Below, one piece after another: positions 4,943 to 31,017 of a stretch of 64,000 nt of DNA; the stretch's first letter is position 1; each line of letters starts with the position of its first letter. The notes under the pieces are model-generated. The model worked only from the letters and a program-made list of their open reading frames with translations. It had not been told where the DNA came from and ran no database searches. Both the position numbers and the translations under genes were made by a program. The stretch comes from Schaalia georgiae DSM 6843. Lineage in GTDB: Bacteria; Actinomycetota; Actinomycetes; Actinomycetales; Actinomycetaceae. The stretch is taken from contig NZ_KE386870.1 of assembly GCF_000429245.1 (NCBI RefSeq), positions 155,311 through 219,310 of the forward strand, read 5' to 3'.

Positions 4943-6277
4943 TCAGCGGGACACTGCCTCCTCGACGACGGCCGACACCTCGCGCGCCACGGACTGCCAT
5001 GTGAATACCTCGCGGACGCGCCGCTGGACCGCGGCGGCGCAGGCCGCGCGGCGCACGGGATCCTCCACCGCCTCGGTGAGGGCGGTCGTGAGGGCGTCGG
5101 CCAGCTCCGCGCTGGAAGAGCCGTCCACCACCCACCCGTGCTCCGGGTCGATGATGACCTCCTCCGTGCCGCCGCGGGGGGTCGCGATCACGGCGCACCC
5201 CATCAGGCCGGCCTCCAGGATCGAGGTGGGCAGGCCCTCGGGGTACAACGACGGGTAGACGAACACGTCGGTGCGGCGGTACAGGCTCATGACGGCGGGG
5301 AAGTCCAGGGTTCCCAGGAACTCCACGCCCGCGCTGTCCCCGTACTCCGCGCGCAGCTGGTCCCCGATGGGGCCCGAGCCGGCGACTGCGAGGACCAGGT
5401 CGAGGTCCGGGTGGGAGTCCCTGACGCGGGTGAAGGCCTCCAGCAGGGCGACCACGCCCTTCTCCGCGATGAGGCGCCCCGCGTAGGAGATGACGATCGG
5501 CGCGCGCTCCGGGGCGCCGCCGTCCGGGCCATCCGGAGCGGAACCGCCCGACGCTGTTCGGCTTGGCGCTGCGGCGTCCGGCGAGGCGGCGCCGCCCGCC
5601 GGGGCTTCGCGCACAGGGTCCGTCCCGCTTGACGGTTCTTCCGCGCGCGCGCCCTGCGCCCCGCTGCGGGGCCACCGGTCCTCGAAGCGGTCGTCGGCCT
5701 TGGCGGCGTCGTCGGGGTTGACGGCATTGTACCACACGCCCGACGCCTCGATGCGGAAGTGCCGCAGCCACTTGTTGCAGTTCTTGGACACGCCGTAGTA
5801 CGAGGTGACATTGCGCTTCACGAAGCGGGTGAGCCCGTGCTCGTAGATCCCCCCGAAGAAGTCGAGCACCTTCGAGCCCACCGACATGTGCGCCGTTCCG
5901 TGCTCGATGAGGGCGACGGGCCTGCCCTGGCGCTTCGCCAGGCGCGCCCCCAGCAGGGAGGTCAGGTGGAAGCGCGTGTTGACGATGTAGAAGTCCGCGG
6001 CCTCGGCCTCCACGCGCGCCATCGTCTCCTTGAAGCGCGCGTCCCTCTTGAAGAACGGGTAGCGCTGCTTGAACAGGCCCTTCGTGGGGAGCCGGTAGAC
6101 GCGCATCCCGTCGCGCTCCTCGAAACGCGGTAAGGACTCGTCGAACAAGGACGTCACAATGAACACGTCGTAGCCCAAGTGGCGCAACTGGGCGCTCAAC
6201 CGGTCGATGTAGCGCTCGATCCCGCCCAAGTAGGGCAGGTAGAACTCCATGAAGATCCCGATCTTCGTGCGCTCCAT
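4943..6277 (-). CDS. GT4-family glycosyltransferase
   Basis: 444-residue cytoplasmic GT-B glycosyltransferase, probably adding a sugar to a lipid-linked surface glycan. The N-terminal acceptor domain has the YLGGIERY loop (residues 16-23). The C-terminal nucleotide-sugar domain has YAGRLIAEKG and the E-x7-E motif EGLPTSILE (about 347-355). Between the domains, residues about 204-259 form an Ala/Gly/Pro/Ser-rich insert absent from typical family members. A strong ribosome binding site (AAGGAGGTG) precedes ATG 6277. It is the last gene of the lic-type operon, 61 bp after the flippase gene. Sugar donor and acceptor are unknown. Confidence 0.88.
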   Translation of the reverse strand: MERTKIGIFMEFYLPYLGGIERYIDRLSAQLRHLGYDVFIVTSLFDESLPRFEERDGMRVYRLPTKGLFKQRYPFFKRDARFKETMARVEAEAADFYIVNTRFHLTSLLGARLAKRQGRPVALIEHGTAHMSVGSKVLDFFGGIYEHGLTRFVKRNVTSYYGVSKNCNKWLRHFRIEASGVWYNAVNPDDAAKADDRFEDRWPRSGAQGARAEEPSSGTDPVREAPAGGAASPDAAAPSRTASGGSAPDGPDGGAPERAPIVISYAGRLIAEKGVVALLEAFTRVRDSHPDLDLVLAVAGSGPIGDQLRAEYGDSAGVEFLGTLDFPAVMSLYRRTDVFVYPSLYPEGLPTSILEAGLMGCAVIATPRGGTEEVIIDPEHGWVVDGSSSAELADALTTALTEAVEDPVRRAACAAAVQRRVREVFTWQSVAREVSAVVEEAVSR

Positions 6278-6338
6278 CAGCGCACCTCCTTCTCAGGGCT
6301 CGTGCCGTGCCCGCACCAGGGTACGAGGCGGGGGCCGC

Positions 6339-7904
6339 TCATGCCCGCGGCCCTCCCCGCGGGTCACAGGGCCCGTGGTCCTCAGCGGTCCGGGACGGGG
6401 GAGTCCCGGGCCCGTCGGGGGTGGGGGAGGGGGGCCCCTCCACGATGGTATCGGAGGCGGGTGCGTCAGGCGGGGAGGACGGCCCGGACGAGGAGGGGCT
6501 GCCCTGGTCGGAGGAGGGGGCGGACGAGGAGGGGCCGTCCCCGTCGCCCGTCGCCCGGCCGGACAGGACAGCGCGGCGCCCGCCCACCATGAACAGGACG
6601 AAGAGGACCGCCAGGACGCTCATGGCGCCCGAGTAGCTGATCGCCGCGCCCATCATCCCCAGGAGCGGGGTCAGCCACTGGGCCAGCGCCCACGCGCACA
6701 CCGCGGCCAACGCGTAGGCGACCAGCACCAGGTTCTGGCGGCGCATCGTCGCCAGGGCGTAGTAGAGGATCACGCCAGCGGCGTTCATGGCGCCGCCGAA
6801 GACCAGGACCATGAGCTCCATGCGGTAGGCGGACACGTCGATGCCGTAGACGAGGCGCAGCAGCGGGGCGCCCACCAGGAATGTCACGGCCCCCACCACG
6901 ACGAAGGCGAAGGCCGTCGAGGCGAGCCCCCGGCGCACCATGGCCGCGAAACCCGGCCAGTCACCAGCGGCCCACCGCGTCGCGATGCGGGTCAGCAGCG
7001 GGCGGAACACGAACAGGGAGAGCATGTTGATCGCGACGGCCGGCATGTAGATGATCGCGAAGTCGCCCAGCGGGGCGCTGCCCAGGAAGTCGTTGACGGC
7101 GTAGCGCGGGGCATTGGCCAGGTACTGGTTGAGGAAGGCCGCCAGGAACAGGGGCAGGCACTGGACCAGCAGGCCGCGGACGGCCCGCGCCCCCCAGTCC
7201 GGGCGCAGGGGGAACAGGCCCCGGGCAGGCAGCCCGTAGGCCGCCGCCAGCACCACGACCGTTACCCCGAAGGTGACCAGCGTCGCCACCATCAGGCTCT
7301 GGGTGGCCCAGTACAGGCCGCTCCACAGGAAGGTCGTCACGAAGATCCGCAGGAAGCAGGCCCTCCCCGCGATATCGAGGCGTCCGCAGCGCTGGAACTC
7401 CGAGTAGTACACGTCCTCGAAGGCGTCGAAGATCCTCAGCAGCGCCAGGCAGACGACCACCAGCAGGGGGGAGGACTCCGACGCCCTCGTCCACGCGTGC
7501 CCCACGATGAAGGCCACCATGAGGGCGCACGTGATGATCCGGGTCGCCAAGTAGGTGCCGAACGTGAAGCGCCGCCGCACGTCCGTCACGTGGTAGGTGC
7601 GGACCTCGTAAAGGCCGAGCGTCTGGTACTGCTGCCCGATGGCCAGGGCCAGGGTGAAGATCCCGTAGGCATGGCGGGCCGAGTCCTGGTCGGAGCCCGA
7701 GCGCGTGATCGCGATGCCCATGATGACCACCGCGAGGCTCGACATGAGGGAGGCCGCAGTGTTCCACAGGTAGTCGCGGCCCAGTTGCTTCTTCGAGTCG
7801 AGGGCGGCGTCCGAGGTGGTGGCCCGCGCATCGGCGTCCGCGGACCCGGCGCGTTCGGCGGCCCCGCTCCCCTCGGCGCCCCGGGGGGCGGTGGCCTCAC
7901 TCAT
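6339..7904 (-). CDS. Wzx-like oligosaccharide flippase
   Basis: 521-residue polytopic membrane protein of the MATE/polysaccharide-biosynthesis flippase type. About twelve hydrophobic segments lie between residues 40 and 440. The soluble N-terminal 40 residues and the last roughly 70 residues (Ser/Gly/Pro/Asp-rich) look disordered. The conserved opening [12 protein letters not shown] resembles Wzx proteins. It would flip a lipid-linked repeat unit across the membrane. ATG 7904 overlaps the end of licD by 8 bp, implying translational coupling; GTG 7907 is an alternative. No Wzy polymerase is recognised nearby, so the polymerisation step is unassigned. Confidence 0.82.
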
Positions 7905-8826
7905 CACTGCCCCCGTTCCCGTCCGGGGCCTCGCCGTACTCGTCGGCGTGGGGGCCCAGGACGATGTGGAAGGGCTTGTGGTTGACGCGCTCGGACTCCT
8001 CGGGAACCCGCATGTAGTCCCCGTAGCCGCGGGTCAGGACCGCGTCGTGGTCGCGCGGGACCCGGATGGTGATGTCCTCGAAGGGGACCTCGCGCGCGGG
8101 GAAGAGCTCGTCGGTGGTGGCGCTCCACCGCATCGGGTCGCGCGTGGAGAAATCGCCGAGCAGGACGGGGCGGTCCGCAGGGGCTGCGCCGGAGGCGGCC
8201 GAGGCGTTCTTCTTCGCACCCAGCATGGCCGCGCGCAGCCACCGGCGGTACAGGCCCCGTTCGGTGATCCGCAGGGCGCGGAGCGCGAAGTGGACGCCCA
8301 GCATGACCGCGGAGGCCGCCTGGCGGGCCGGGGTGGGCAGGCCCGTGGGTGGATTGCCCACGCCCCGCAGGAACATGAGCCTGGCCCACAGCCACGTGCC
8401 CCGGGACTGGCGGGCGAAGACCCGCTTGTTCTCTGCGATCTCGTCCAGCACGAACAGGTCCACGCCGATGGGCATGCGGAACGACCTGCCCTTGGCGACC
8501 TCGGACACGAACTCGCTGCCCCGCAGGCCGATGACGCCGAAACTGATCGGGTAGTCGGCGTCGCTGAGCGGGGAGGCGATGAAGAACTCCGGGCGCAGCA
8601 CTGCGGGCGCCTCACGGATGAAACGCTCGTAGTCCTCGCGGGGCATGCACACGTCGCCGTCGTCGTCCCAGGGGATGAAGCCCTGGTGGCGCACCGCGCC
8701 GATGGCTGTGCCGCCGTAGGCGGTGTAACGGACGCCCAGGATCGCGCACACGCGGTCGATCTCGGCGAGCACGCGCTTCGTCACCGTCTGGACCGCCGCC
8801 AGGGCCGGCGGGTCGTAGGAGTGCAT
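7897..8826 (-). CDS. licD: LicD-family phosphotransferase (second copy)
   Basis: 309-residue LicD protein. LicD enzymes transfer phosphocholine from CDP-choline (some relatives transfer other phospho-groups) to a glycan. The hallmark is present: GGTAIGAVRHQGFIPWDDD at about residues 38-56. The residue after the DDD triplet is Gly (DDDGDV), where the neighbouring copy and most family members have Ile. C-terminal family segments FSTRD and YGDYMRVPEESER are also visible. AGAGGACACC precedes ATG 8826. It lies 13 bp after the first licD and overlaps the flippase gene. The two copies differ substantially and probably modify different residues, as proposed for pneumococcal LicD1/LicD2; that parallel is inferred. 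Confidence 0.87.
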   Translation of the reverse strand: MHSYDPPALAAVQTVTKRVLAEIDRVCAILGVRYTAYGGTAIGAVRHQGFIPWDDDGDVCMPREDYERFIREAPAVLRPEFFIASPLSDADYPISFGVIGLRGSEFVSEVAKGRSFRMPIGVDLFVLDEIAENKRVFARQSRGTWLWARLMFLRGVGNPPTGLPTPARQAASAVMLGVHFALRALRITERGLYRRWLRAAMLGAKKNASAASGAAPADRPVLLGDFSTRDPMRWSATTDELFPAREVPFEDITIRVPRDHDAVLTRGYGDYMRVPEESERVNHKPFHIVLGPHADEYGEAPDGNGGSDE

Positions 8827-8839
8827 GGTGTCCTCTCGG

Positions 8840-9706
8840 TCAACGGGGCGGGAAACCGTCCGCGTAGGGGCCGAAGTCGATCTCCGCCGCCTCGTGGTTG
8901 TAGCGCTCGGACTCGGGGGGGATCCGCATGTAGTCGCCGTAGCCGCGGCGCAGCAGGTCGTCGTAACGGTTCTGGATCTTCACAGTGATGTCCTCGAAGG
9001 CGATGTCCCGGGTGGGGAAGAACTCCTCGTGGCGCACGATCCAGTTCTCCGGGTCGCGCATGGTGAAATCGGCCATCGCTCCGCCCCCGTCCGCCTCGTG
9101 GGAGCGCACCGCGCGCTCCCACCGGGCCTGCAGGCGCCTCGGAGTCGCCCCCACGAGGCGCAGGGCGTAGTGCGCCAGCGTCGTCGCCGTGAAGATCAGC
9201 GCCCGCTTCGCGCCGGACACCCCCACCAGGTGCGGGCGGGGGGTCCCGCGCACGAACAGCAGCCTGCCCCACCACCACGAGCGCCGAGACATGGCCTTGA
9301 AGGCCGCCCCGTCGTCCGGGATCGCGTCCAAAGGCAGGATGTCCAGGAAGAACGGCATGCGGTACACCGCGTCCTTGTCCGCCTCGGGGACCAGCAGTGT
9401 GCCCGGGACCACCATTTTCGTGAACATGAAGGGGAAGTCGTCACGGGTGCGCGTGTTGTCCAAACGGAAGCGCGGATCCATGACGGCGGGCGCCTCGGCG
9501 AGGAAGCGCTCGTAGTGCTCCCGCGTCATCATCACGTCGATGTCGTCGTCCCACGGGATGAACCCCCCGTGGCGGACCGCGCCGATCGCCGTCCCCCCGT
9601 ACACCGCGTACTCAACGCCGATGGCGCGGCACACGCGGTCCAGCTCCTCCAAGATCCGGGTCAGCAACCACTGGACCTTCTTCAAGTCCTGGGTTTCATC
9701 GGCCAT
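8840..9706 (-). CDS. licD: LicD-family phosphotransferase (first copy)
   Basis: 288-residue LicD protein with the canonical metal-binding motif GGTAIGAVRHGGFIPWDDDID at about residues 39-59. The C-terminal block contains DFTMRDPENW and RGYGDYMRIPPESERYNH. It is predicted to transfer phosphocholine from CDP-choline to a sugar of the surface glycan at the cytoplasmic face. AGGAGG sits 5 bases before ATG 9706, a better initiation site than most in the operon. It is 41 bp downstream of the licB-like gene and immediately upstream of the second licD. Its paralogue here keeps the same architecture but has a Gly in the DDDxD motif. Confidence 0.9.
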   Translation of the reverse strand: MADETQDLKKVQWLLTRILEELDRVCRAIGVEYAVYGGTAIGAVRHGGFIPWDDDIDVMMTREHYERFLAEAPAVMDPRFRLDNTRTRDDFPFMFTKMVVPGTLLVPEADKDAVYRMPFFLDILPLDAIPDDGAAFKAMSRRSWWWGRLLFVRGTPRPHLVGVSGAKRALIFTATTLAHYALRLVGATPRRLQARWERAVRSHEADGGGAMADFTMRDPENWIVRHEEFFPTRDIAFEDITVKIQNRYDDLLRRGYGDYMRIPPESERYNHEAAEIDFGPYADGFPPR

Positions 9707-9747
9707 GGGGCCTCCTGGGTCGGGCGATCGGCGGCTCCGCTATCTTC

Positions 9748-10749
9748 TCACACCTGCCCGGCTCCGGGGACCGTGGCCAGGTCCGCCTTGCGGCCCTTGC
9801 GCGGCAGCAGCTCTCCCCAGTCCGGGGTCGCCGCCAGCACAGTGCCGACCAGGATCACCGCGCAGCACACGATCTGAACGGGCGAGGGCACGGTCTTCTG
9901 CAGCAGCAGGGCGAAGATGATCGCCCACGCCGAGTACGAGATGTTGAGCGCCATGCCCCGCGACGCCCCGATCGCCGAGATCGCCTTGTAGTAGAACAGG
10001 TACGAGGCCGTGCCCGCCAGGGCGGCCAGGGCCACCACGCCCGTACCCAGCGTCGGGACCGCATGGAGAGTGAAACCGAACACTCCGGCGATCGGGGCGA
10101 CCACCAGCAGGTAGACCAGGCCCGACGTGGTCTCGCGGATCTGCAGCGCCGTCTCGTTGTCCACGAGGTCGTCGCGCATGCCCCACGCCAGGATCACCGC
10201 CTCGGAGCCCCAGCCGACCACGCACGCCAGGGCTGCCACGACGCCCAGGACGGCGTTGCCGCCCTCCACGGGATCCGAGGTGGCCGACCAGCCGGTGATG
10301 ACGATCGCGCCCAGGGCCACCAGCAGCGCCAGGATCTGCCGGGGCCGCATCCGCTCCTTGAGCAGCAAGAACGCCAGGAAGGTGCCCACCGCCGGGTAGA
10401 ACGTCGAGATGATCGCCGTCAGCCCCGGGCCGATGTTGTCGATGGCGATCAGGTAGCCGCTCATCCCGATGGGGCCGCCCAGCAGGGCGGCGAGGACGAC
10501 AGAGCGGCCCGAGCGCGTGCCCAGCGCCCGCCACGTGTCCGCCAGGCGCCCTCGGACACCCATGTACACCAGCAGGACCAGGGCGCACCCCACGTCGTGG
10601 AGCACTGCGCCGGCCAGCGCGGACTGCCCGAAGTCCAGGAACGGGGCCATCGTCAGCGCGATCGCCAGAACAACCGTGTCCAGGCCCCACAGGGCCCCGG
10701 AGAATATGCCGTAGCGGCGCCCTCCTCGTGAGCAGTTCATCGTGATCAT
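9748..10749 (-). CDS. licB: LicB-like DMT-family choline permease
   Basis: 333-residue membrane protein of the drug/metabolite (EamA-type) transporter superfamily with about ten transmembrane helices in two repeats. It matches LicB-type choline uptake proteins in size, and conserved segments include GALWGLDTVVL near the N terminus, STFYPAVGTF and a C-terminal ISYSAWAIIFALLL. Its start overlaps the stop of the choline kinase fusion by 4 bp (ATGA). A second ATG at 10740 is possible, since GAAGGA is very close to the first. Context strongly supports choline import; in isolation it could be any DMT exporter. Confidence 0.85.
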   Translation of the reverse strand: MITMNCSRGGRRYGIFSGALWGLDTVVLAIALTMAPFLDFGQSALAGAVLHDVGCALVLLVYMGVRGRLADTWRALGTRSGRSVVLAALLGGPIGMSGYLIAIDNIGPGLTAIISTFYPAVGTFLAFLLLKERMRPRQILALLVALGAIVITGWSATSDPVEGGNAVLGVVAALACVVGWGSEAVILAWGMRDDLVDNETALQIRETTSGLVYLLVVAPIAGVFGFTLHAVPTLGTGVVALAALAGTASYLFYYKAISAIGASRGMALNISYSAWAIIFALLLQKTVPSPVQIVCCAVILVGTVLAATPDWGELLPRKGRKADLATVPGAGQV

Positions 10750-12557
10750 CGTCCTTCCTGGGAACGGGCCGCCTCGTACTGGGCGAGCAGGGAATCAGTA
10801 TTGCGCACCGCGTGGGAGTAGTAGATGAAGAGCCATTCACCGACGTCGTCGCCCTCGGCCTCCTTCACCAGCGCCCACACGTACCAGCACCAGCCGGCGA
10901 ACACCTCATAGGCGCGGAAGTGGCGGTGCTCCGCCTCCGTGGGCGTGCGCCCGAAGTAGTACTCGAGGGCGCGGCCGACCCGCGCCTCGTCCATCTCCGC
11001 CGTGCACACCGTCATCGTCCCGAAGTCGGCGGCGACATCGCTCATCCCCGCGTACTCCCAGTCGATGAGGTCGATGTGGCCGTCGGAGTCGACCAGGAAG
11101 TTGGGCGGGAAGAAATCGTTGTGCGAGGGGGCGCGGTCGAAACCGTCCTCGTCCGCGAACGCCTTCAGGCGCATGACCTTCTCACGGAGCTCGCCGTAGC
11201 CGGGCACGTCGATGGGGCCGAAGTCCTCCAGGAGGCGCTCGTAGGCCAGTGCTTCGGAGATGAAATCGAAGGAGCGTTCGAGCACCATCCCCGAGTTGTG
11301 CAGGTTCCGGTCCATCTCCATGGCGCGGCGAAGCTCCTCGTCGTTCGTCACGTCCAGGTTGCGCACGCCGGGGATGAAGCGCGAGATCTTCCACCCGGCC
11401 TCGGGGTCGCCCGTGATGAACGTGCGGTCGATCCCCAGGTCGCGGGCCAGGCGGAGTGCGGCGAACTCGGCGTCGCGGTTCACGATCTTGTTCGTGCCGA
11501 TCCCCGGGTGGCGGTACACGTACTCGCCGTCGTTGACCGAGAAATGGCACGAGAGGTTCGTGATCCCCTGCTTGAGCGGGTAGAAGTCGTGGATCTCGGA
11601 CTTCATCACCCCGAGCGCCTGCGTGATGTGGTCGAAGACCTCGGAGTCGACGTTCTCCATGAAAAGCGGGTCGAAGGAGCGCAGCTCGTCCACGGAGTCG
11701 AACTCGTGGATCACCCCGTCCGGGTAGCGGCGGATGACCATGTCCAGTTCCTTGACGTGGTCCAGGTAGATCGACTCCCACAGTTTCGCCGCCGTCTCCG
11801 GCTGGGAGTACACCTCCTCCAGGATGGCGCGGAAGCGCTGGGAGAACGCCCTGTCGAAGTACACGTGGCCGAGCATCACCCACGCGTCGGCGCCGCCGAC
11901 CGTCGCCCCCGTGATCCGGTCGCCCGTGCCCACCTTGATGCACCACTCGGGGGTGGGGCCCGCCGCGTAGTTCGCGGAGTAGTAGGACTGGAAGACGTGC
12001 GACTCGAAGGGGTTCTCAGTGAAGTAGTCGTCGGAGGAGCACACGTAGGTGTTGTCGAGGCGCTTGCGGACGCTCCACAGGGAGCCGTTGTTGTTGCGCG
12101 TCGCGTACTCCTCGTTGACGACGATGTCGACGCCGAACTTCTCCGCGAGGTAGAAGAAGTACTCCTTCTTGTAGCCCACGACCACTGCGATGTCTGTGAT
12201 GCCCGCCTCGCGGAGTTGGCGGATCTGGCGCTCGACCAGGACATCGCCGCGCACTTTCAGGGTGCCCTTGGGGCGCTCGTAGGAGATGGGGGCGAAACGC
12301 GAGGACAGTCCGGCGGCCATGATCACGGCGCTCTTGACGCGGTAGGGCTCCAGGGCCCGCTCCCCGGCGGGGGTGAGGGTGCGCTCGGAGATGAGCCCCG
12401 CGGCCTCGCACTCGCGGATCGCGGTGTTCACGCGGCCGAGGCTCATGCCTGTGGCCTCGCGGATCGCGCGTTGGGTGAGGGGCGCGCCCGCGCGGAGCAG
12501 GGTGTAGAGGACATTGAATTGCGAGGCGGTGAGCTCGCCGACTCCTGTCAGGGACAT
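10746..12557 (-). CDS. licCA: HTH / phosphocholine cytidylyltransferase / choline kinase fusion (LicC-LicA)
   Basis: 603-residue three-domain protein. Residues about 8-65 form a winged helix-turn-helix (TQRAIREATGMSLGRVNTAI). Residues about 77-300 form a nucleotidyltransferase with MAAGLSSRFAP and the following Lys in ERPKGTLKV, as in LicC. Residues about 320-603 form an APH/choline kinase domain with the catalytic HNDFFPPNFL (from 479) and the metal-binding DWEYAG (from 499), as in LicA. Together these would phosphorylate choline and convert it to CDP-choline. ATG 12557 fits the promoter at 12599-12627 (leader about 35 bases). Further in-frame ATGs (12593, 12608) would lie at or upstream of the transcription start. 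It is the first gene of the operon. The HTH suggests autoregulation or choline sensing; this is inferred. Confidence 0.9.
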   Translation of the reverse strand: MSLTGVGELTASQFNVLYTLLRAGAPLTQRAIREATGMSLGRVNTAIRECEAAGLISERTLTPAGERALEPYRVKSAVIMAAGLSSRFAPISYERPKGTLKVRGDVLVERQIRQLREAGITDIAVVVGYKKEYFFYLAEKFGVDIVVNEEYATRNNNGSLWSVRKRLDNTYVCSSDDYFTENPFESHVFQSYYSANYAAGPTPEWCIKVGTGDRITGATVGGADAWVMLGHVYFDRAFSQRFRAILEEVYSQPETAAKLWESIYLDHVKELDMVIRRYPDGVIHEFDSVDELRSFDPLFMENVDSEVFDHITQALGVMKSEIHDFYPLKQGITNLSCHFSVNDGEYVYRHPGIGTNKIVNRDAEFAALRLARDLGIDRTFITGDPEAGWKISRFIPGVRNLDVTNDEELRRAMEMDRNLHNSGMVLERSFDFISEALAYERLLEDFGPIDVPGYGELREKVMRLKAFADEDGFDRAPSHNDFFPPNFLVDSDGHIDLIDWEYAGMSDVAADFGTMTVCTAEMDEARVGRALEYYFGRTPTEAEHRHFRAYEVFAGWCWYVWALVKEAEGDDVGEWLFIYYSHAVRNTDSLLAQYEAARSQEGR

Positions 12558-12562
12558 AAGCA

Positions 12563-12627
12563 ATCCGTTCAGTAGTGGATTCGATTGCAGCATGTTCGAT
12601 CGTAGCATGGGTGGAACAAAAAGTGAA
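12563..12627 (-). promoter_or_regulatory. lic operon promoter with tandem 15-bp boxes
   Basis: On the minus strand, -35 TTCACT (12627-12622), a 17-bp spacer and -10 TACGAT (12604-12599). Overlapping and following the -10 are two 15-bp near-repeats of the form GCTRCRATCGAAY (12606-12577), a possible operator for the HTH domain of the encoded fusion protein. Confidence 0.55.
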
Positions 12628-22073: not shown

Positions 22074-23936
22074 ATGCGACGCGGAGGAATCTTCCTGTTC
22101 TTCGACCCCCAGGGCAAGGTCGACGACTACATCCTCAAGTGCCTGGGCACCCTGCGAGAGCACATCGACGAGATCCTCGTGGTGTCGAACTCCCCCTTGG
22201 ACGGGACCGCCAGGGCGCGCCTGGAGGGCGTCGCCACAACCGTGATCGAGCGCGAGAACGTCGGATTCGACGTCGGCGGCTACCAGGACGGGCTCGACGC
22301 CTTCGGGTGGGACAGGCTGGGCTCCTTCGACGAGCTCGTCCTCTTCAACTACACCTTCTTCGCCCCCGTCAACCCCTGGAAGAACCTCTTCGACCGTGTC
22401 GACGAGTGGGGCGACGTGGACTTCTGGGGCATCACCGAGCACGACGAGGTCCGCCCCCATCCCTTCCTGGCCAAGACCGTCATGCCGCGCCACATCCAAT
22501 CCCACTGGATCGCTGTGCGCAACCCCCTGCTCACCAGCGCCGACTTCCGCGACTACTGGAGCTCCATGCCCCAGATCTCCTCGTACAACGACTCGATCCA
22601 ATGGCACGAGACGCGTTTCACCGAGCACTTCACGGAGCTCGGCTACACGCACAAGGTCGCTTACCCCAGGGAGGACTACCCCTCGCGCAACCCCGTCTTC
22701 GACAACGCCGCGCAACTGCTGGCCGACGGGTGCCCCATCCTCAAGAGGCGCAACCTCTTCCACGACCCCCTCTACCTGGACCGCCACGCCATCGTCGGGG
22801 CGGACATGCTGGAGCTGGCGGCCCGGTCCGGCTACGACACGGACCTCATCCTCACCAACCTGGCCCGCACCTCCAAGCCCCGCGACCTCGTCACCAACGC
22901 CGGCCTGACCACAGTCGTGCCCCCCTTCGCCGCGCCGCAGGCCCGCGAGAAGGCCGCCTCGCTGCGTGTCGCCGCCATCGCGCACATCTTCTACGCGGAC
23001 ATGGCCGACGAGATCATCGACCGGCTCTCGGCGCTGCCCGACGGCTGGCGCCTGGTCGCCACCACGGCCGACGAGGAGCGCAAGGCCGCCATCGAGGAGA
23101 CCATGGCGCGCAGGGGCGTCGCCGGGGAGGTGCGCGTCGTCGCCTCGAACCGCGGGCGCGACATCTCCGCGTTCCTGGTGGACTGCGCCGACGTGCTGGC
23201 GGGCGACGACTACGACATCGTCGTGAAGATCCACTCGAAGAAATCCGTGCAGGACGAGGCCAACGCCGCCCACCTCTTCAAGGACCACCTCTACGAGAAC
23301 CTCCTGGACTCCAAGGACCACGTGGCCAACATCCTCGCCGAGTTCGCCGACCACCCCGGGCTGGGTATGGCACTGGCGCCCATGCCGCACATGGGCTACC
23401 CCACGATGGGCCACGCCTGGTTCGCCAACCGCCGTCCCGCGCGCGAACTGGCGAAGCGGATCGGCATCACCGTCCCCTTCGACGACCACCAGCCCCTGGC
23501 GCCCTACGGGTCCATGTTCATCGCCCGGCCCCGCGCGCTGCGCCCCCTGGTCGAGGCGGGACTCACCCACGACGACTTCCCGCCCGAGGGCGGCTACCAG
23601 GACGGCTCCCTGGCCCACGTCATCGAGCGCCTGCTCGCGTACGCGGTCCTGTCCGAGGGCTACTTCGCCCGTCCCGTCATGACCCCCAAGTGGGCCGGCG
23701 TCTACTACGGGTACCTCGAGTACAAGCTCGCGGCGACCTCCTCCATGCTGCCCGCCTTCTCCATCGACCAGGTCCCCTACCTCAAGGCGCGCGTCGGGCA
23801 GGTCCCCAACGTGCTCGGAGCGGTCAAGACGAACATCATGCTGCGCAGCCCCGGAATCGGCAACGCCCTCAAGCCCGCCTACCGGGCGGGCCGCAAGGCC
23901 GTCGCCGCCCTCCGCTCGCTCAGGGGCCGCCGATGA
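22074..23936 (+). CDS. rhamnan synthesis F-family protein
   Basis: 620-residue protein resembling RgpF-type enzymes of rhamnose-containing polysaccharide synthesis. Two halves are visible: an N-terminal GT-like part with ENVGFDVGGYQDGLD and LFNYTFFAPV (about residues 60-110), and a C-terminal part with SNRGRDISAFL and DIVVKIHSKKS, ending in RPVMTPKWAGVYY. Such two-domain proteins extend polyrhamnose backbones or side chains in the cytoplasm. It overlaps the acyltransferase gene by 4 bp. Together with RmlB at 34 kb it supports a rhamnose-containing polymer, although RmlA, RmlC and RmlD are not in the window. Confidence 0.87.
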   Translation: MRRGGIFLFFDPQGKVDDYILKCLGTLREHIDEILVVSNSPLDGTARARLEGVATTVIERENVGFDVGGYQDGLDAFGWDRLGSFDELVLFNYTFFAPVNPWKNLFDRVDEWGDVDFWGITEHDEVRPHPFLAKTVMPRHIQSHWIAVRNPLLTSADFRDYWSSMPQISSYNDSIQWHETRFTEHFTELGYTHKVAYPREDYPSRNPVFDNAAQLLADGCPILKRRNLFHDPLYLDRHAIVGADMLELAARSGYDTDLILTNLARTSKPRDLVTNAGLTTVVPPFAAPQAREKAASLRVAAIAHIFYADMADEIIDRLSALPDGWRLVATTADEERKAAIEETMARRGVAGEVRVVASNRGRDISAFLVDCADVLAGDDYDIVVKIHSKKSVQDEANAAHLFKDHLYENLLDSKDHVANILAEFADHPGLGMALAPMPHMGYPTMGHAWFANRRPARELAKRIGITVPFDDHQPLAPYGSMFIARPRALRPLVEAGLTHDDFPPEGGYQDGSLAHVIERLLAYAVLSEGYFARPVMTPKWAGVYYGYLEYKLAATSSMLPAFSIDQVPYLKARVGQVPNVLGAVKTNIMLRSPGIGNALKPAYRAGRKAVAALRSLRGRR

Positions 23937-26652: not shown

Positions 26653-27495
26653 GTGAGTGATTACAAGCGGGTCATAGATCTCACGCTGCGCATGGCCCAG
26701 CGCTCCATCTCCTCGGAGTTCAAGGGAACCGCGCTGGGGCGCGTCTGGTCCTTCATCAACCCCCTGGCCACCATCGCCGTGTACGCGCTCATCTTCGGCG
26801 TCGTGTTCCGGGGCAAGGCCGACCCGGGGGTGAACTCGGGGCTGACCTCCTTCGCGCTGTGGATCGGGGTGGGCGTCATCGCCTGGAACTTCATCTCCAG
26901 CGGAATCCAGAGGGGCATGGACTCCCTGGTGGGGAACGCGGGACTGCTCACCAAGGTGTACTTCCCCCGCCAGGTGCTCGTATACTCCACGGTGCTCGCC
27001 CTGGCCTACGACTTCGCCTTCGAGTTGGTCGTCATCGGAATCGTCATGCTGGTCGCCGGCGGTCCCGGCGTCCTCCTCATGATCCCATTCGTGATCGCGG
27101 TCACCGTCCTCGCCTGCCTGTTCGTCACCGGCATGGGCATGGTCCTGGCCATCGCGTCCGTGTACTTCCGCGACATTTCGCACCTGTGGAAGATCTTCAA
27201 CCAGATCTGGATGTACGCCTCGGGCGTCGTCTTCTCACTGTCGATGCTCAACGACGTCCAGAACGAGCTGTACGAGCAGGGGTGGAGGATCGGCGGCGAG
27301 CCCCTGCCGATCGTCACCCTCTTCCGCCTCAACCCCGCCGAGCTCTTCCTCGAGGCCTACCGCTCGTGCCTCTACGGCTTCGCCAACCCCTCGTGGAAGG
27401 TGTGGCTGGGGTGCGCCGGCTGGGCGCTGGGCGTCTACGCCCTGGGGGTCCTCGTCTTCAAGCGCTTCTCGGCGCGGATCGTGGAGGAACTGTGA
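26653..27495 (+). CDS. ABC-2 type polysaccharide export permease (Wzm/TagG-like)
   Basis: 280-residue inner-membrane permease with about six TM helices and the ABC-2 features LGRVWSFINPLATIAVYALI and FRDISHLWKIFNQIWMY. It pairs with the ATPase encoded immediately downstream (1-bp overlap of TGA/ATG) to export a lipid-linked polymer. It starts with GTG 26653. The O-antigen/teichoic acid exporter subgroup is supported by the ATPase partner's C-terminal domain. Confidence 0.9.
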   Translation: MSDYKRVIDLTLRMAQRSISSEFKGTALGRVWSFINPLATIAVYALIFGVVFRGKADPGVNSGLTSFALWIGVGVIAWNFISSGIQRGMDSLVGNAGLLTKVYFPRQVLVYSTVLALAYDFAFELVVIGIVMLVAGGPGVLLMIPFVIAVTVLACLFVTGMGMVLAIASVYFRDISHLWKIFNQIWMYASGVVFSLSMLNDVQNELYEQGWRIGGEPLPIVTLFRLNPAELFLEAYRSCLYGFANPSWKVWLGCAGWALGVYALGVLVFKRFSARIVEEL

Positions 27496-28811
27496 TGACG
27501 AACGCCATTTCCATCTCGGAGGTCTCCAAGCGCTTCCGCATCTACAAGAACCGCAACCAGTCCCTCAAGGGCGCGTTCCTGCAGCGCTCCCGCGCCCAGT
27601 TCGAGGAGTTCTGGGCGCTGTCGGACGTGTCCTTCGACATTCCGCAGGGCAAGACCTTCGGCCTACTGGGGCACAACGGCTCCGGCAAATCCACCCTGCT
27701 CAAGTGCATCGCGCGTATCCTGGCCCCCGACAAGGGCTCCATCGCCACGACCGGCCGCATGGCCGCCATGCTGGAGGTCGGCTCCGGGTTCCATCCGGAG
27801 TTGTCGGGCCGTGAGAACATCTACCTCAACGGCGCCATCCTGGGGATGAGCCGCAGGGAGATCGACTCGAAACTGGATGCGATCATCGACTTCTCCGGCG
27901 TCGAGCGCTTCATCGACCAACCAGTGAAGAACTACTCCTCGGGCATGTACGTGCGCCTGGGGTTCTCCGTGTCCATCCACGTCGAGCCCGACATCCTGCT
28001 GGTGGACGAGGTCCTGGCCGTGGGCGACATGGAGTTCCAGAACAAGTGCATGGACAAGTTCGCCCAGCTCAAGGACCAGGGGCGCACGGTCGTCGTCGTC
28101 TCCCACGGCCTTGAGCAGATGCGGACCTTCTGCGATCAGGCCGCGTGGCTCGACCACGGGAGAATGGTCGCAGTGGGGACCGCGGCAGAGGTCATCGACA
28201 CCTACTCCGATGTCGCCCACCACGCGGTCGAAGTGCCCGGCGGTGGCACGCGCTTCGGCAGTGGCGAGGCCCAGATCACCCGCATCGACATCCTCGACGA
28301 GGCGGGGGAGAGCGTTTCCCTGGTCTACCCGGGCCAGCGCCTGCGCCTGCGCCTGCACTACAGGGCGCAGGAGCGCGTCGAGGGCCCGGTCTTCGGCGCG
28401 TCCGTCGACACCCGGGAGGGCACGTGGGTGTGGGGCCTGCACGGGGTGGACGCCACCTACGTGCCCAGCGCCATCGAGCCGGGGGAGGGGCATCTCGACA
28501 TCGTGATCCCCCACCTGGCGCTCAACCCCGGGTCCTACACGTTGTCCGCGGCGATCCAGAACCGGGACATGACCGCCGTCATCGACGCCCTGCAGAAGGC
28601 GAGGCGCTTCGACGTGCTGCCCGGCCCCGGCATGGAGTCGGGGGGCCTGGTCATTCTGGGCGCCTCCTTCGAGGGCCTCACGCCCTCCGCTCCGATGCTC
28701 GACATCCCCAAGCGCGGGAAGGCGGACTTCGACCGCCTCGCGCGACAGCAGGTGCAGCAGGCGGACTCGCTGGCGCAACAGGAGGACCCGCAGGCGAATC
28801 CGGACGAATAG
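27495..28811 (+). CDS. ABC exporter ATPase with substrate-binding C-terminal domain (Wzt/TagH-like)
   Basis: 438-residue protein. Residues 1-250 are an ABC ATPase with Walker A GHNGSGKS, a signature-type NYSSGMYVRL and Walker B ILLVDEVLAVGD. The Wzt-type hallmark GSGFHPELSGRENIYLNG is present. Residues about 255-400 form a beta-rich domain like the Wzt carbohydrate-binding region that recognises the polymer end group in E. coli O8/O9. The tail is Gln-rich. With the permease it would export the completed glycan. GTG 27492 is an alternative start. A separate Wzx-like flippase lies at 6.3 kb, so two export routes coexist. Confidence 0.9.
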   Translation: MTNAISISEVSKRFRIYKNRNQSLKGAFLQRSRAQFEEFWALSDVSFDIPQGKTFGLLGHNGSGKSTLLKCIARILAPDKGSIATTGRMAAMLEVGSGFHPELSGRENIYLNGAILGMSRREIDSKLDAIIDFSGVERFIDQPVKNYSSGMYVRLGFSVSIHVEPDILLVDEVLAVGDMEFQNKCMDKFAQLKDQGRTVVVVSHGLEQMRTFCDQAAWLDHGRMVAVGTAAEVIDTYSDVAHHAVEVPGGGTRFGSGEAQITRIDILDEAGESVSLVYPGQRLRLRLHYRAQERVEGPVFGASVDTREGTWVWGLHGVDATYVPSAIEPGEGHLDIVIPHLALNPGSYTLSAAIQNRDMTAVIDALQKARRFDVLPGPGMESGGLVILGASFEGLTPSAPMLDIPKRGKADFDRLARQQVQQADSLAQQEDPQANPDE

Positions 28812-28885: not shown

Positions 28886-30343
28886 ATGACTTCCCTGCGC
28901 CCAAGAGGCATCCTGGCCGCCCTCTGCCTCGTCCTCGCCGTCGGCGTCCTGCCCGTCTCGGCTGCCAGCGCGGATGATTCCGGCTCCCAATCGGGGACCG
29001 CGGGATCCTCCGGACCCTCCCCCCGGGCGGGGGAGGGCGGCGGGCAGTCCGGCGCTCCTACCGCCGACCCTGCCCCCGCGAGCGGCCCTGCGGCAGCGCC
29101 CGACCTCACCGGACGAGGGGCGTGGGTGAACGAAGGGGCGCGCTGGTGGTGGCGCAGCTCCGACGGGGGCTACCCCGCCTCGCAGTGGGCGCGCATCAAG
29201 GGCTCGGTCTATTCCTTCGACGCCTCCGGCTACATGCGCACCGGCTGGTACCGCGAGGACGGCGCCTGGTACTTCCTGACCCCGTCGGGTGCGATGGCGA
29301 CCGGTTGGGTGCAGGACGCGGGCGACTGGTACTACCTGGATCCGGCGACCGGGGCCATGGCTGTGGGGGACCTGCAGGTGGGTGGGTCCCGGTACCACAT
29401 GGACGCCTCGGGGGCGATGCGCACCGGGTGGGTGAGCAGTGGGGACGGGTGGCGTTTCTACGCGCCGTCGGGCGCGATGGCGACCGGTTGGGTGCAGGAC
29501 GCGGGCGACTGGTACTACCTGGATCCGGCGACCGGGGTCATGCGCACCGAAACCCTCGTACTCAACGGGCGCACCTACGAGTTCACCCCCTCCGGCGCCT
29601 GGATGGGGTACGAGGCACCCGCCGGCTACCTGCAGCCGACCGACCACATCACCGGTCTGGGAGGGAGCACGAACACCCTCACCTGGGGCATGAACGGCAT
29701 CAAAGTGATGATCGTCCAGCGGCGGTTGGGCATCTGGCACACCATGAAGCTCGCCAGCGTCGACGCCTCCTTCGTCACGGCGGTGAAGAACTTCCAGTGG
29801 CGCGCGGGCCTGTCCCAGACGGGCGTCGTCGATGAGGAGACGTGGAACGCGATGGGAACGGGCTGGCCGTGGACGGTCGACCAGTACCAGGCCCAGCCGG
29901 TGCCGCTGACGGCCCGGCGTTCCGAGCGCGTCGAGGCGATGATCGGGTACGCGTGGAACCAGACCGGCACCCCGTACACGTGGGGTGGAGCCGGGCCGGC
30001 GGGCCTGGGCTACGACTGCTCCGGACTGGTCCTGCAGTCCCTGTACGCGGGCGGCATGGACCCCCAGCCCATCGACGTCATCAAGCACGGGTGGCCCGAC
30101 TACCGCACTTCCCAGGAGCTGTACGACTACTCGGGCTTCCAGCACGTCCCGCTGTCGCAGCGCCAGCGCGGGGACCTCGTCTTCTACACGACCGGCGGGT
30201 CGGTCACCCATGTCGCCATCTACCTGGGCGACGACATGGTGGTGCACACGGACTGGATGGGGCGCCCGGCCCGGATGCAGTACATCACCGTCGGATACGG
30301 GTGGGACCGTATGACGTGGGACGTGGTTCGTCCGTTCCCGTGA
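28886..30343 (+). CDS. secreted choline-binding-repeat NlpC/P60 peptidase
   Basis: 485 residues. The signal peptide ends near VSAASA (residue 29), and a disordered linker runs to about 75. At least five choline/glucan-binding-type repeats lie at about 79-253 (e.g. GAMATGWVQDAGDWYYLD, twice almost identical). A peptidoglycan-binding domain-like region follows at about 268-332 (QRRLG...FVTAVKNFQ). The NlpC/P60 domain spans about 350-485 with Cys378 (YDCSG), His442 and His454. It probably cleaves peptidoglycan stem peptides at the surface while held by choline-substituted polymer; related repeats can instead bind glucan. ACAACGGAGACGACC precedes the ATG. It is downstream of the ABC exporter with its own 74-bp gap. 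Confidence 0.88.
   Translation: MTSLRPRGILAALCLVLAVGVLPVSAASADDSGSQSGTAGSSGPSPRAGEGGGQSGAPTADPAPASGPAAAPDLTGRGAWVNEGARWWWRSSDGGYPASQWARIKGSVYSFDASGYMRTGWYREDGAWYFLTPSGAMATGWVQDAGDWYYLDPATGAMAVGDLQVGGSRYHMDASGAMRTGWVSSGDGWRFYAPSGAMATGWVQDAGDWYYLDPATGVMRTETLVLNGRTYEFTPSGAWMGYEAPAGYLQPTDHITGLGGSTNTLTWGMNGIKVMIVQRRLGIWHTMKLASVDASFVTAVKNFQWRAGLSQTGVVDEETWNAMGTGWPWTVDQYQAQPVPLTARRSERVEAMIGYAWNQTGTPYTWGGAGPAGLGYDCSGLVLQSLYAGGMDPQPIDVIKHGWPDYRTSQELYDYSGFQHVPLSQRQRGDLVFYTTGGSVTHVAIYLGDDMVVHTDWMGRPARMQYITVGYGWDRMTWDVVRPFP
29291..29542 (+). repeat. 69-bp direct repeat inside the choline-binding-repeat gene
   Basis: The segment at 29291-29359 recurs at 29474-29542 with a single base difference, encoding the same GAMATGWVQDAGDWYYLD unit. 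Near identity at third positions implies recent duplication or gene conversion. Confidence 0.9.
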
Positions 30344-30432: not shown

Positions 30433-31017
30433 CTAGAACAGCACGGGCCAGTGCGGCATGCACTGGGTGAGGGCCGTGTGCGCGTCGGCGACATCGGCCA
30501 CGGCCTGCTCGTACTCGGGGTTCGGTGCGGGGACGCGCCCGGCTTTGAGGTCGTCCTGGGCCTGCTGCTCATCGGCGTACTCGGGGACTGCGCCCGAGGA
30601 GAGCCGCTGGCCCACCTGGACGTAGGTGTGCAGGGCCTCGACGGCGTGGCGCGAGGCGTCGTCCGTGGCGGCCGCCTTGAACTCCGACTTCCACGGGTCC
30701 GAATCGAGGAGCGCGGTGAACGCCTGCCACACCTGCTGCGGGTCCGCGTCGGCGCTGGCCCCTAAGGCGGGCCCCTGCCGGGTGAGCGCCGCGAAGGCCT
30801 GTCCTTGGGACGTGGTCTGGACGGCCCGTGTGAAGACCTCGTCCATCGCGGCGCAACCGCCGGAGGCGGGCTCGGCCTGGGGCAGCTGGCCAGTCGACTG
30901 GGGGACGGGGGAGGCCGCGGTGCCGGACTGGACGGCCGGGTCCGGGGAGGAGCAGGCGGGGGCGAGGGCGGCGCAGCCGACGGCCAGCGCGGCGCAGAAG
31001 CGGGCGGACGCGCGCAC
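30433..31017 (-). CDS. putative lipoprotein
   Basis: 194-residue exported protein. A short basic start, a hydrophobic stretch and a lipobox ending LAPAC place the acylated Cys at residue 22. A Pro/Gln/Ser linker follows, then a mainly helical domain with QVWQAFTALLDSDPW. Cysteines near residue 55 and near the C terminus could form a disulfide. No family is recognised. GTG 31017 follows GAGG at 9 bases. It starts 5 bp after the GT2 stop, so it is the third gene of the DUF2142-GT2-lipoprotein operon and probably acts at the cell envelope. Confidence 0.75.
   Translation of the reverse strand: MRASARFCAALAVGCAALAPACSSPDPAVQSGTAASPVPQSTGQLPQAEPASGGCAAMDEVFTRAVQTTSQGQAFAALTRQGPALGASADADPQQVWQAFTALLDSDPWKSEFKAAATDDASRHAVEALHTYVQVGQRLSSGAVPEYADEQQAQDDLKAGRVPAPNPEYEQAVADVADAHTALTQCMPHWPVLF

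Follow-up and report, generated by a model that had tools for sequence, protein, structure and literature searches.

The genome of Schaalia georgiae DSM 6843 very probably decorates a surface glycan with choline and holds at least 15 secreted repeat proteins on that choline, in a manner resembling the pneumococcus. The DNA analysed here, referred to as the window, is a stretch of 64,000 nucleotides from this 2.5 Mb genome, and it contains both a lic cluster, the predicted maker of the ligand, and the gene of a secreted NlpC/P60 enzyme with choline-binding repeats. A pneumococcus-like scheme had been predicted in a preliminary description of the window, and it is now backed by co-occurrence, physical linkage, fold, cage residues and the exchange of anchors among orthologues. 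The same description regarded the arrangement as an undescribed system, which is not borne out by the literature, since Lic-1 enzymes and phosphorylcholine have been reported in Actinomyces (PMC10434233) and choline-binding proteins in A. odontolyticus XH001 (PMC6166536).

The NlpC/P60 enzyme and its repeats

The open reading frame of the enzyme was found exactly as it had been claimed, on the plus strand and with 485 aa from an ATG start. Its domain bounds are approximate:

28886..30343, plus strand: secreted protein with choline repeats (aa 78-241), a PG_binding_1 domain (aa 260-325) and an NlpC/P60 domain (aa 345-485), assigned by open reading frame, Pfam and structure model

Pfam matched the protein with Choline_bind_3 (E 7e-29; five stretches at E 0.01, four at E 0.001), Choline_bind_1 (E 1.6e-21), PG_binding_1 (E 1.1e-8) and NLPC_P60 (E 8.6e-16), and the N-terminus, judged by eye, resembles a signal peptide. 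Choline_bind_3, PG_binding_1 and NLPC_P60 were matched in all 18 aligned orthologues of the enzyme, among which C378 and H442 never vary and conservation of H454 reaches at least 90%. We take these three to be the catalytic C-H-H residues, as established knowledge of the NlpC/P60 family would have it, and the peptidoglycan-binding domain and intact Cys-His-His NlpC/P60 domain read from the sequence earlier are upheld by the Pfam matches and this conservation. Structural alignment with CwlO and RipA-type structures gave Z 12-13. By its fold and its C-H-H residues the enzyme is an NlpC/P60 peptidase, with a predicted activity.

Five or so repeats had been counted in the protein. The repeats are real according to Pfam, but the number is a slight undercount, as the structure model contains eight beta-hairpins between residues 78 and 231, with a pLDDT mostly above 90 in the repeat region. 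By motif, three repeats are of the strict form, and four carry both cage tryptophans. Of the window's 325 stop-to-stop segments with a length of 100 aa or more, one contains the strict motif, so the repeat match is not due to chance.

The lic cluster and the genes next to the enzyme

A lic operon had been reported about 16 kb from the enzyme, and the cluster indeed occupies 4943-12590 on the minus strand, with the gene of its fused LicC-LicA protein (LicCA) 16.3 kb from the enzyme gene. It consists of the following genes:

4943..6277, minus strand: GT4 glycosyltransferase at the end of the cluster (Pfam)
6339..7907, minus strand: Wzx-type (MOP superfamily) flippase adjoining the LicD genes (AlphaFold model and structural match)
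7897..8826, minus strand: LicD-family phosphocholine transferase 2 (PF04991, 8.9e-31)
8840..9706, minus strand: LicD-family phosphocholine transferase 1 (PF04991, 6e-35)
9748..10749, minus strand: EamA-family transporter, LicB-like, putatively for choline uptake (Pfam EamA, 1.9e-17)
10746..12590, minus strand: fusion of a MarR-like HTH, LicC (CTP:phosphocholine cytidylyltransferase) and LicA (choline kinase), assigned by Pfam, PDB and alignment; its longest open reading frame extends to 12926

The best PDB match of the LicC half is the cytidylyltransferase 1jyk (2e-40) and that of the LicA half is the choline kinase 4r77 (1.8e-29), while both LicD proteins exceed the Pfam cut-off. Homologues of LicA, LicB, LicC and LicD therefore stand together in one locus, the LicB call being made from the broad EamA family alone. 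The LicD and EamA families also include other activities. At the N-terminus of LicCA, positions 12357-12533 of the minus strand encode the MarR-like HTH (MarR_2 1.9e-9, Pfam), and several columns of the HTH region are nearly invariant in an alignment of ten sequences; the HTH-LicC-LicA fusion may be an enzyme that also regulates. Among the matches listed, the closest named LicCA proteins belong to Actinomyces bouchesdurhonensis and to records titled Xylanimonas and Sanguibacter (77-78% identity). The latter two records, titled Xylanimonas cellulosilytica and Sanguibacter keddieii (L121, L122), have the lic gene order of the window along with their 77-78% identical LicCA, and they look mislabelled.

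The flippase gave no Pfam or NCBIfam match and no match to PDB sequences at E 0.01. Its AlphaFold model (mean pLDDT 82.8) has WzxE (9g9n) as the best structural match, with Z 30.6 and rmsd 3.4 over 393 residues. It stands beside the LicD genes, as TacF does in the pneumococcus; no TacF row stands among the 50 structural matches listed, and a kinship with TacF is possible all the same. The word Actinomyces is absent from the accessible part of the TacF paper (PMC13385700).

Between the lic cluster and the enzyme gene lies a rhamnan-type glycan cluster with glycosyltransferases, an RgpF protein and a Wzm/Wzt exporter, and a small gene follows the enzyme:

22074..23936, plus strand: RgpF-like rhamnan synthesis protein (PF05045, 1.7e-143)
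26653..27495, plus strand: Wzm-type glycan ABC transporter permease, named by its position before Wzt and by eye
27498..28811, plus strand: Wzt-type ATPase with a Wzt_C glycan-binding domain (Pfam)
30433..31017, minus strand: small putative lipoprotein that accompanies the NlpC enzyme (unmatched in Pfam)

The Wzt gene ends 74 bp before the NlpC gene starts, and Wzt adjoins the NlpC orthologue in six of eight other same-genus loci (L063, L064, L065, L068, L069 and L070, not L067 and L086). Judged from these neighbouring genes, the decorated polymer is probably a non-teichoic, rhamnan-type glycan. Of 12 LicCA genomes at a greater distance, 11 have the small lipoprotein beside their NlpC enzyme, but none of the seven nearest same-genus loci does; among 17 genomes whose orthologue has another anchor, it was matched in five at E <1e-20 and more weakly in five more.

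Choline as the probable ligand of the repeats

Choline-binding repeats are tandem units of about 20 aa with the consensus TGW-b-(K,Q)DNGSWYYLN-x-SG-z-M, and the choline is contacted by the two leading aromatic residues of each repeat, as a rule tryptophans, which form its cage, as described in a published account (PMC4929436). The cage tryptophans of the repeats in this genome sit at the pneumococcal positions given there. According to the same account, the Pfam family PF01473 also takes in glucan-binding proteins and clostridial toxins, and this breadth speaks for an alternative in which the ligand of the repeats is alpha-glucan or some other carbohydrate, as with glucan-binding or toxin repeats, and surface mimicry is the sole role of the lic cluster. 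That alternative also draws on a phage endolysin with similar repeats, published as dextran sucrase-like (PMC9394477), and on the sequence-only PDB list, where full-length toxin chains rank above the pneumococcal choline-binding proteins because they have many repeats each. A query of 63 aa matched nothing among the PDB sequences at E 1e-6.

Profile scores, fold and cage residues run against a glucan ligand. The NCBIfam models of pneumococcal PspA and choline-binding PspC scored 135 and 125.7 bits, compared with 26.5 bits for the glucan-binding repeat, all below their own cut-offs, the latter being meant for entire proteins or arrays. The repeat model is a beta-hairpin solenoid like CbpF and LytA, and pneumococcal choline-binding modules fill the 12 highest places by Z in its structural alignment (Z 14.1-16.2); one of them, 2v05, shares 39% identity and superposes over 142 residues at Z 16.1 and rmsd 1.3. 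No clostridial toxin repeat exceeded Z 13.8, and as rows within Z 1 count as tied, the choline modules with the lowest Z are level with the toxins. Before YY, the toxin repeats among the PDB sequence matches mostly have lysine or arginine, whereas the repeats of the enzyme have W. Repeats of the glucan-binding or toxin-like kind were rejected on these three grounds, and the tracking of LicCA by the repeats in the genome samples (see below) also counts against a glucan ligand, to which we would give a small chance. Predicted fold, profile scores and cage residues favour choline over glucan.

Further choline-repeat proteins of the genome

The genome encodes at least 15 choline-repeat proteins, namely the enzyme and 14 found by script; a weak sixteenth candidate (G000:C1:112113), with one Choline_bind_1 match, was left out of the count. 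A lone, isolated choline-repeat gene was thereby ruled out. By motif, the 15 proteins contain 86 repeats with both cage tryptophans, and a Choline_bind_1 profile search gave 70 matches in this genome and none in 14 control genomes. Choline_bind_3 was present in one of the 14 controls, Lactococcus lactis, which is also one of the two with LicD. The domains beside the repeats are amidase plus glucosaminidase, GH16, cadherin-like, L,D-transpeptidase, BspA-type LRR, pullulanase and fucosidase. Three of the repeat proteins are subtilases, one of them with LRR, three short ones contain nothing but repeats, and in a single long one Pfam matched no further domain. The match of ligand maker and ligand reader within one window, which the preliminary description had emphasized, understates the case, as the enzyme is one of at least 15 such repeat proteins in the genome.

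Co-occurrence of the repeats and LicCA

Phylogenetic co-occurrence, set beforehand as a refutation test, was examined in samples drawn evenly from larger groups, and an association was found, though it is confounded by kinship. In the family sample of 200 genomes, LicCA was counted as present at 330 bits or more, so that 23 partial or weak ones among 87 matches at E 0.001 went uncounted, and one genome (G034) with a LicA-like match only (199 bits) was scored as lacking it. Choline_bind_3 occurs in 54 of these genomes and LicCA in 64, with both in 49, repeats only in five, LicCA only in 15 and neither in 131 (Fisher 2e-27, relatedness ignored). In the phylum sample (396 genomes), repeats occur in 17 (E 1e-5) and LicCA in 18 (E 1e-60): both in 13, LicCA only in five, repeats only in four and neither in 374. 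Ten of the 11 genera with repeats in the phylum sample also have LicCA, one of them (g108) by another species.

Nine genomes carry repeats without LicCA, five in the family sample, one of which is 70% complete, and four in the phylum sample. A search for LicD was negative in all nine, and for LicCA five gave no match and four a weak partial one of at most 20.7 bits. Two of the sequences without LicCA or LicD (L205 and L206, from G298 and G427) have Choline_bind_3 repeats that look degenerate by eye, and their ligand may differ. The other four of the five in the family sample are same-genus genomes (L201, L202, L203 and L204), which share a near-identical choline-repeat protein that is sialidase-like (Pfam on L201). 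The retention of this protein would fit a reading in which the repeats bind choline made mainly by others, such as host cells or neighbouring bacteria, and the protein, secreted as an adhesin or weapon, does not stay on the wall of its producer. The repeats of the present genome, however, ride on wall enzymes (amidase plus glucosaminidase, L,D-transpeptidase, NlpC/P60), and the enzyme gene is often near lic, and we consider a mainly foreign source of choline quite improbable.

Physical linkage to licCA

Of the 22 genomes with a choline-anchored NlpC gene, 14 have it at a distance of 2.6-34.1 kb from licCA. The distance is 179 and 1785 kb in two of the remaining eight, and in six the two genes are on different contigs, with the gene itself broken over two contigs in one. 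A wider view was taken from the best 80 of at least 571 confirmed named LicCA loci, with flanks of up to 10 kb, in which a choline-repeat ORF was defined by an E 1e-8 match to the repeats of this genome plus two WYY-like motifs, a definition that may miss divergent ones. Such ORFs, 44 in all, are present in the flanks of 16 of these 80 loci (11 of 45 among loci of at least 21 kb), and none was found in the flanks of the other 64. LicD accompanies 43 of the 80, a LicB-like ORF 61 and a flippase 33.

In several Coriobacteriia, choline-repeat genes adjoin licCA. Counting the matches listed, the repeats within 15 kb of licCA are 13 of 13 in Collinsella, 20 of 20 and 30 of 37 in two Adlercreutzia, 4/4, 9/21, 4/8, 5/34 and 1/1 in five more genomes, and 0/8 and 0/4 in Atopobium minutum and Lancefieldella rimae. 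These ten tabulated genomes were partly picked for known repeats near lic and are thus biased, and the table omits G600 (one weak match) and G601 (none), so the 16 of 80 loci is the less biased figure. In G595, one of the tabulated genomes, one of 15 repeat clusters is within 15 kb of licCA, and in an Eggerthella MAG all 19 repeat matches fall at C14:41.2-45.2 kb, the site of the ORFs beside licCA. Two further arrangements were seen: an Actinomycetaceae MAG (L170:9245-20996) in which four choline-repeat ORFs come after two licCA-licB pairs in tandem, and a record titled Streptococcus sp. 263_SSPC (L190), where two LicCA fusions occur along with LicD-like ORFs and a choline-repeat ORF of 861 aa.

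Exchange of the anchor on a common catalytic core

Orthologues of the catalytic core (aa 239-485) occur in 39 of the 200 family genomes. Their anchors were labelled first by eye, and Pfam agreed for all 39: choline repeats in 22, CWB2 in seven, FG-GAP in five, several PG_binding in two and no further domain in three, G159 being assigned to the last group. The choline anchor is present in 22 of 23 LicCA genomes and in none of the 16 others (Fisher 4.5e-10, relatedness ignored); one genome (G095) combines a divergent LicCA (37% identity) with a PG_binding anchor. The best enzyme tree requires eight anchor changes. Independent pairs that differ in LicCA number three on well-supported branches (four on all branches), two of which agree and one of which shows no difference (sign test p 0.5), and with so few pairs the association by which anchor type follows LicCA across the orthologues is suggestive only.

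The small number of independent pairs, together with the clustering of both traits on the tree, is also what a chance neighbourhood would predict, in which repeats and lic are both ancestral genes of the lineage and have no working link. Such an origin is hard to reconcile with the recurrence of co-occurrence in three families of at least two classes and with the choline-repeat genes that adjoin licCA in several Coriobacteriia, and we regard it as very improbable indeed.

Proposed scheme

In the pneumococcus-like scheme that we prefer, choline would be taken up by the LicB-like transporter, and then phosphorylated and activated to CDP-choline by the fused LicA and LicC behind the HTH. The two LicD transferases would place phosphocholine on a lipid-linked glycan, which the Wzx-type flippase would take outward to the wall. 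There, the hairpin repeats of the enzyme would hold the wall cholines via their tryptophan cages, a grip by which we propose that the NlpC/P60 peptidase is kept at the wall non-covalently, and the enzyme so held would cleave the stem peptides of peptidoglycan. The choline anchor would serve 14 or more further secreted proteins of this genome as well. This mechanism is very likely right: domains, fold, cage residues, linkage and co-occurrence were computed, and from them we infer that choline is taken up and bound, what the glycan is, and that the enzyme is retained at the wall and cleaves it.

Phages may make use of the same choline. The endolysin of the Eggerthella phage PMBT5 (L214:2000-2977) combines Amidase_2 with canonical choline-binding repeats (Pfam); it has been described with dextran sucrase matches and an unclear function (PMC9394477), and its repeats suggest that it targets choline. 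Among 181 phage records that match a short choline-repeat protein of the genome, 159 are streptococcal by name, two are from Eggerthella and none from Actinomyces. A search of viral contigs with the whole enzyme gave nine pattern matches and no confirmed relative.

Implications and comparison with known systems

Choline anchoring is chiefly regarded as a streptococcal trait. A broader idea, which we offer tentatively and hold to be less than probable, is that human- and animal-associated Actinomycetota share a choline address system, in which anchors (choline repeats, CWB2, FG-GAP, PG_binding) are swapped to match the polymer, HTH-LicC-LicA makes CDP-choline and regulates by it, and phages like PMBT5 exploit the choline. 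If true, makers, binders and a phage exploiter would exist in Schaalia, Actinomyces, Collinsella, Adlercreutzia, Slackia and Eggerthella relatives, and wall retention, autolysis and adhesion of common oral and gut bacteria would become testable by giving or withholding choline. It would also assign a function to the repeats in the endolysin of the Eggerthella phage, so far unexplained (PMC9394477), and bear on the choline-binding proteins of XH001 that rise with TM7x (PMC6166536).

Several elements of this picture have been reported in Actinomycetota. A. viscosus and A. gerencseriae, which are related organisms with the same Lic-1 enzymes as in the window, are phosphorylcholine-positive by antibody (PMC10434233); the term choline-binding occurs 0 times in the main text of that paper, which thus links no binders to Lic-1 there. 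Choline-binding proteins rise in A. odontolyticus XH001 carrying TM7x (PMC6166536), and Bifidobacterium dentium has five adjacent genes with predicted choline-binding domains (PMC2788695), actinobacterial domains as here, for which the available text draws no link to choline decoration. A non-exhaustive literature search found no work that joins lic and choline-binding proteins in Actinomycetota, and none on choline-binding in Schaalia.

Among NlpC/P60 peptidases, those of the RipA/CwlO kind have the same catalytic fold and C-H-H residues as the enzyme. Unlike them, the enzyme has a choline-repeat anchor, and among its orthologues the anchor may instead be CWB2, FG-GAP or additional PG_binding domains, or Pfam finds nothing further.

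Also close in kind is the known system of Streptococcus pneumoniae and the mitis group, with its choline-binding proteins, lic1/lic2 and TacF. The window shares with it LicA, LicC, LicD, a LicB-like transporter and a MOP flippase beside LicD, and further points in common are the TGW...WYY repeat, wall hydrolases as anchored cargo and repeat-bearing phage endolysins. In contrast to the pneumococcus, the window comes from the Actinomycetota, its LicC and LicA are fused behind an HTH, and its neighbouring genes suggest a rhamnan-type glycan and a Wzm/Wzt exporter instead of teichoic acid, while the cargo of the genome includes pullulanase, fucosidase, subtilases, GH16 and L,D-transpeptidase. What is new here is the fused LicC-LicA behind an HTH, the probable non-teichoic glycan, as judged from its neighbours, and an anchor exchanged between lineages, all within the known choline scheme of the pneumococcus.
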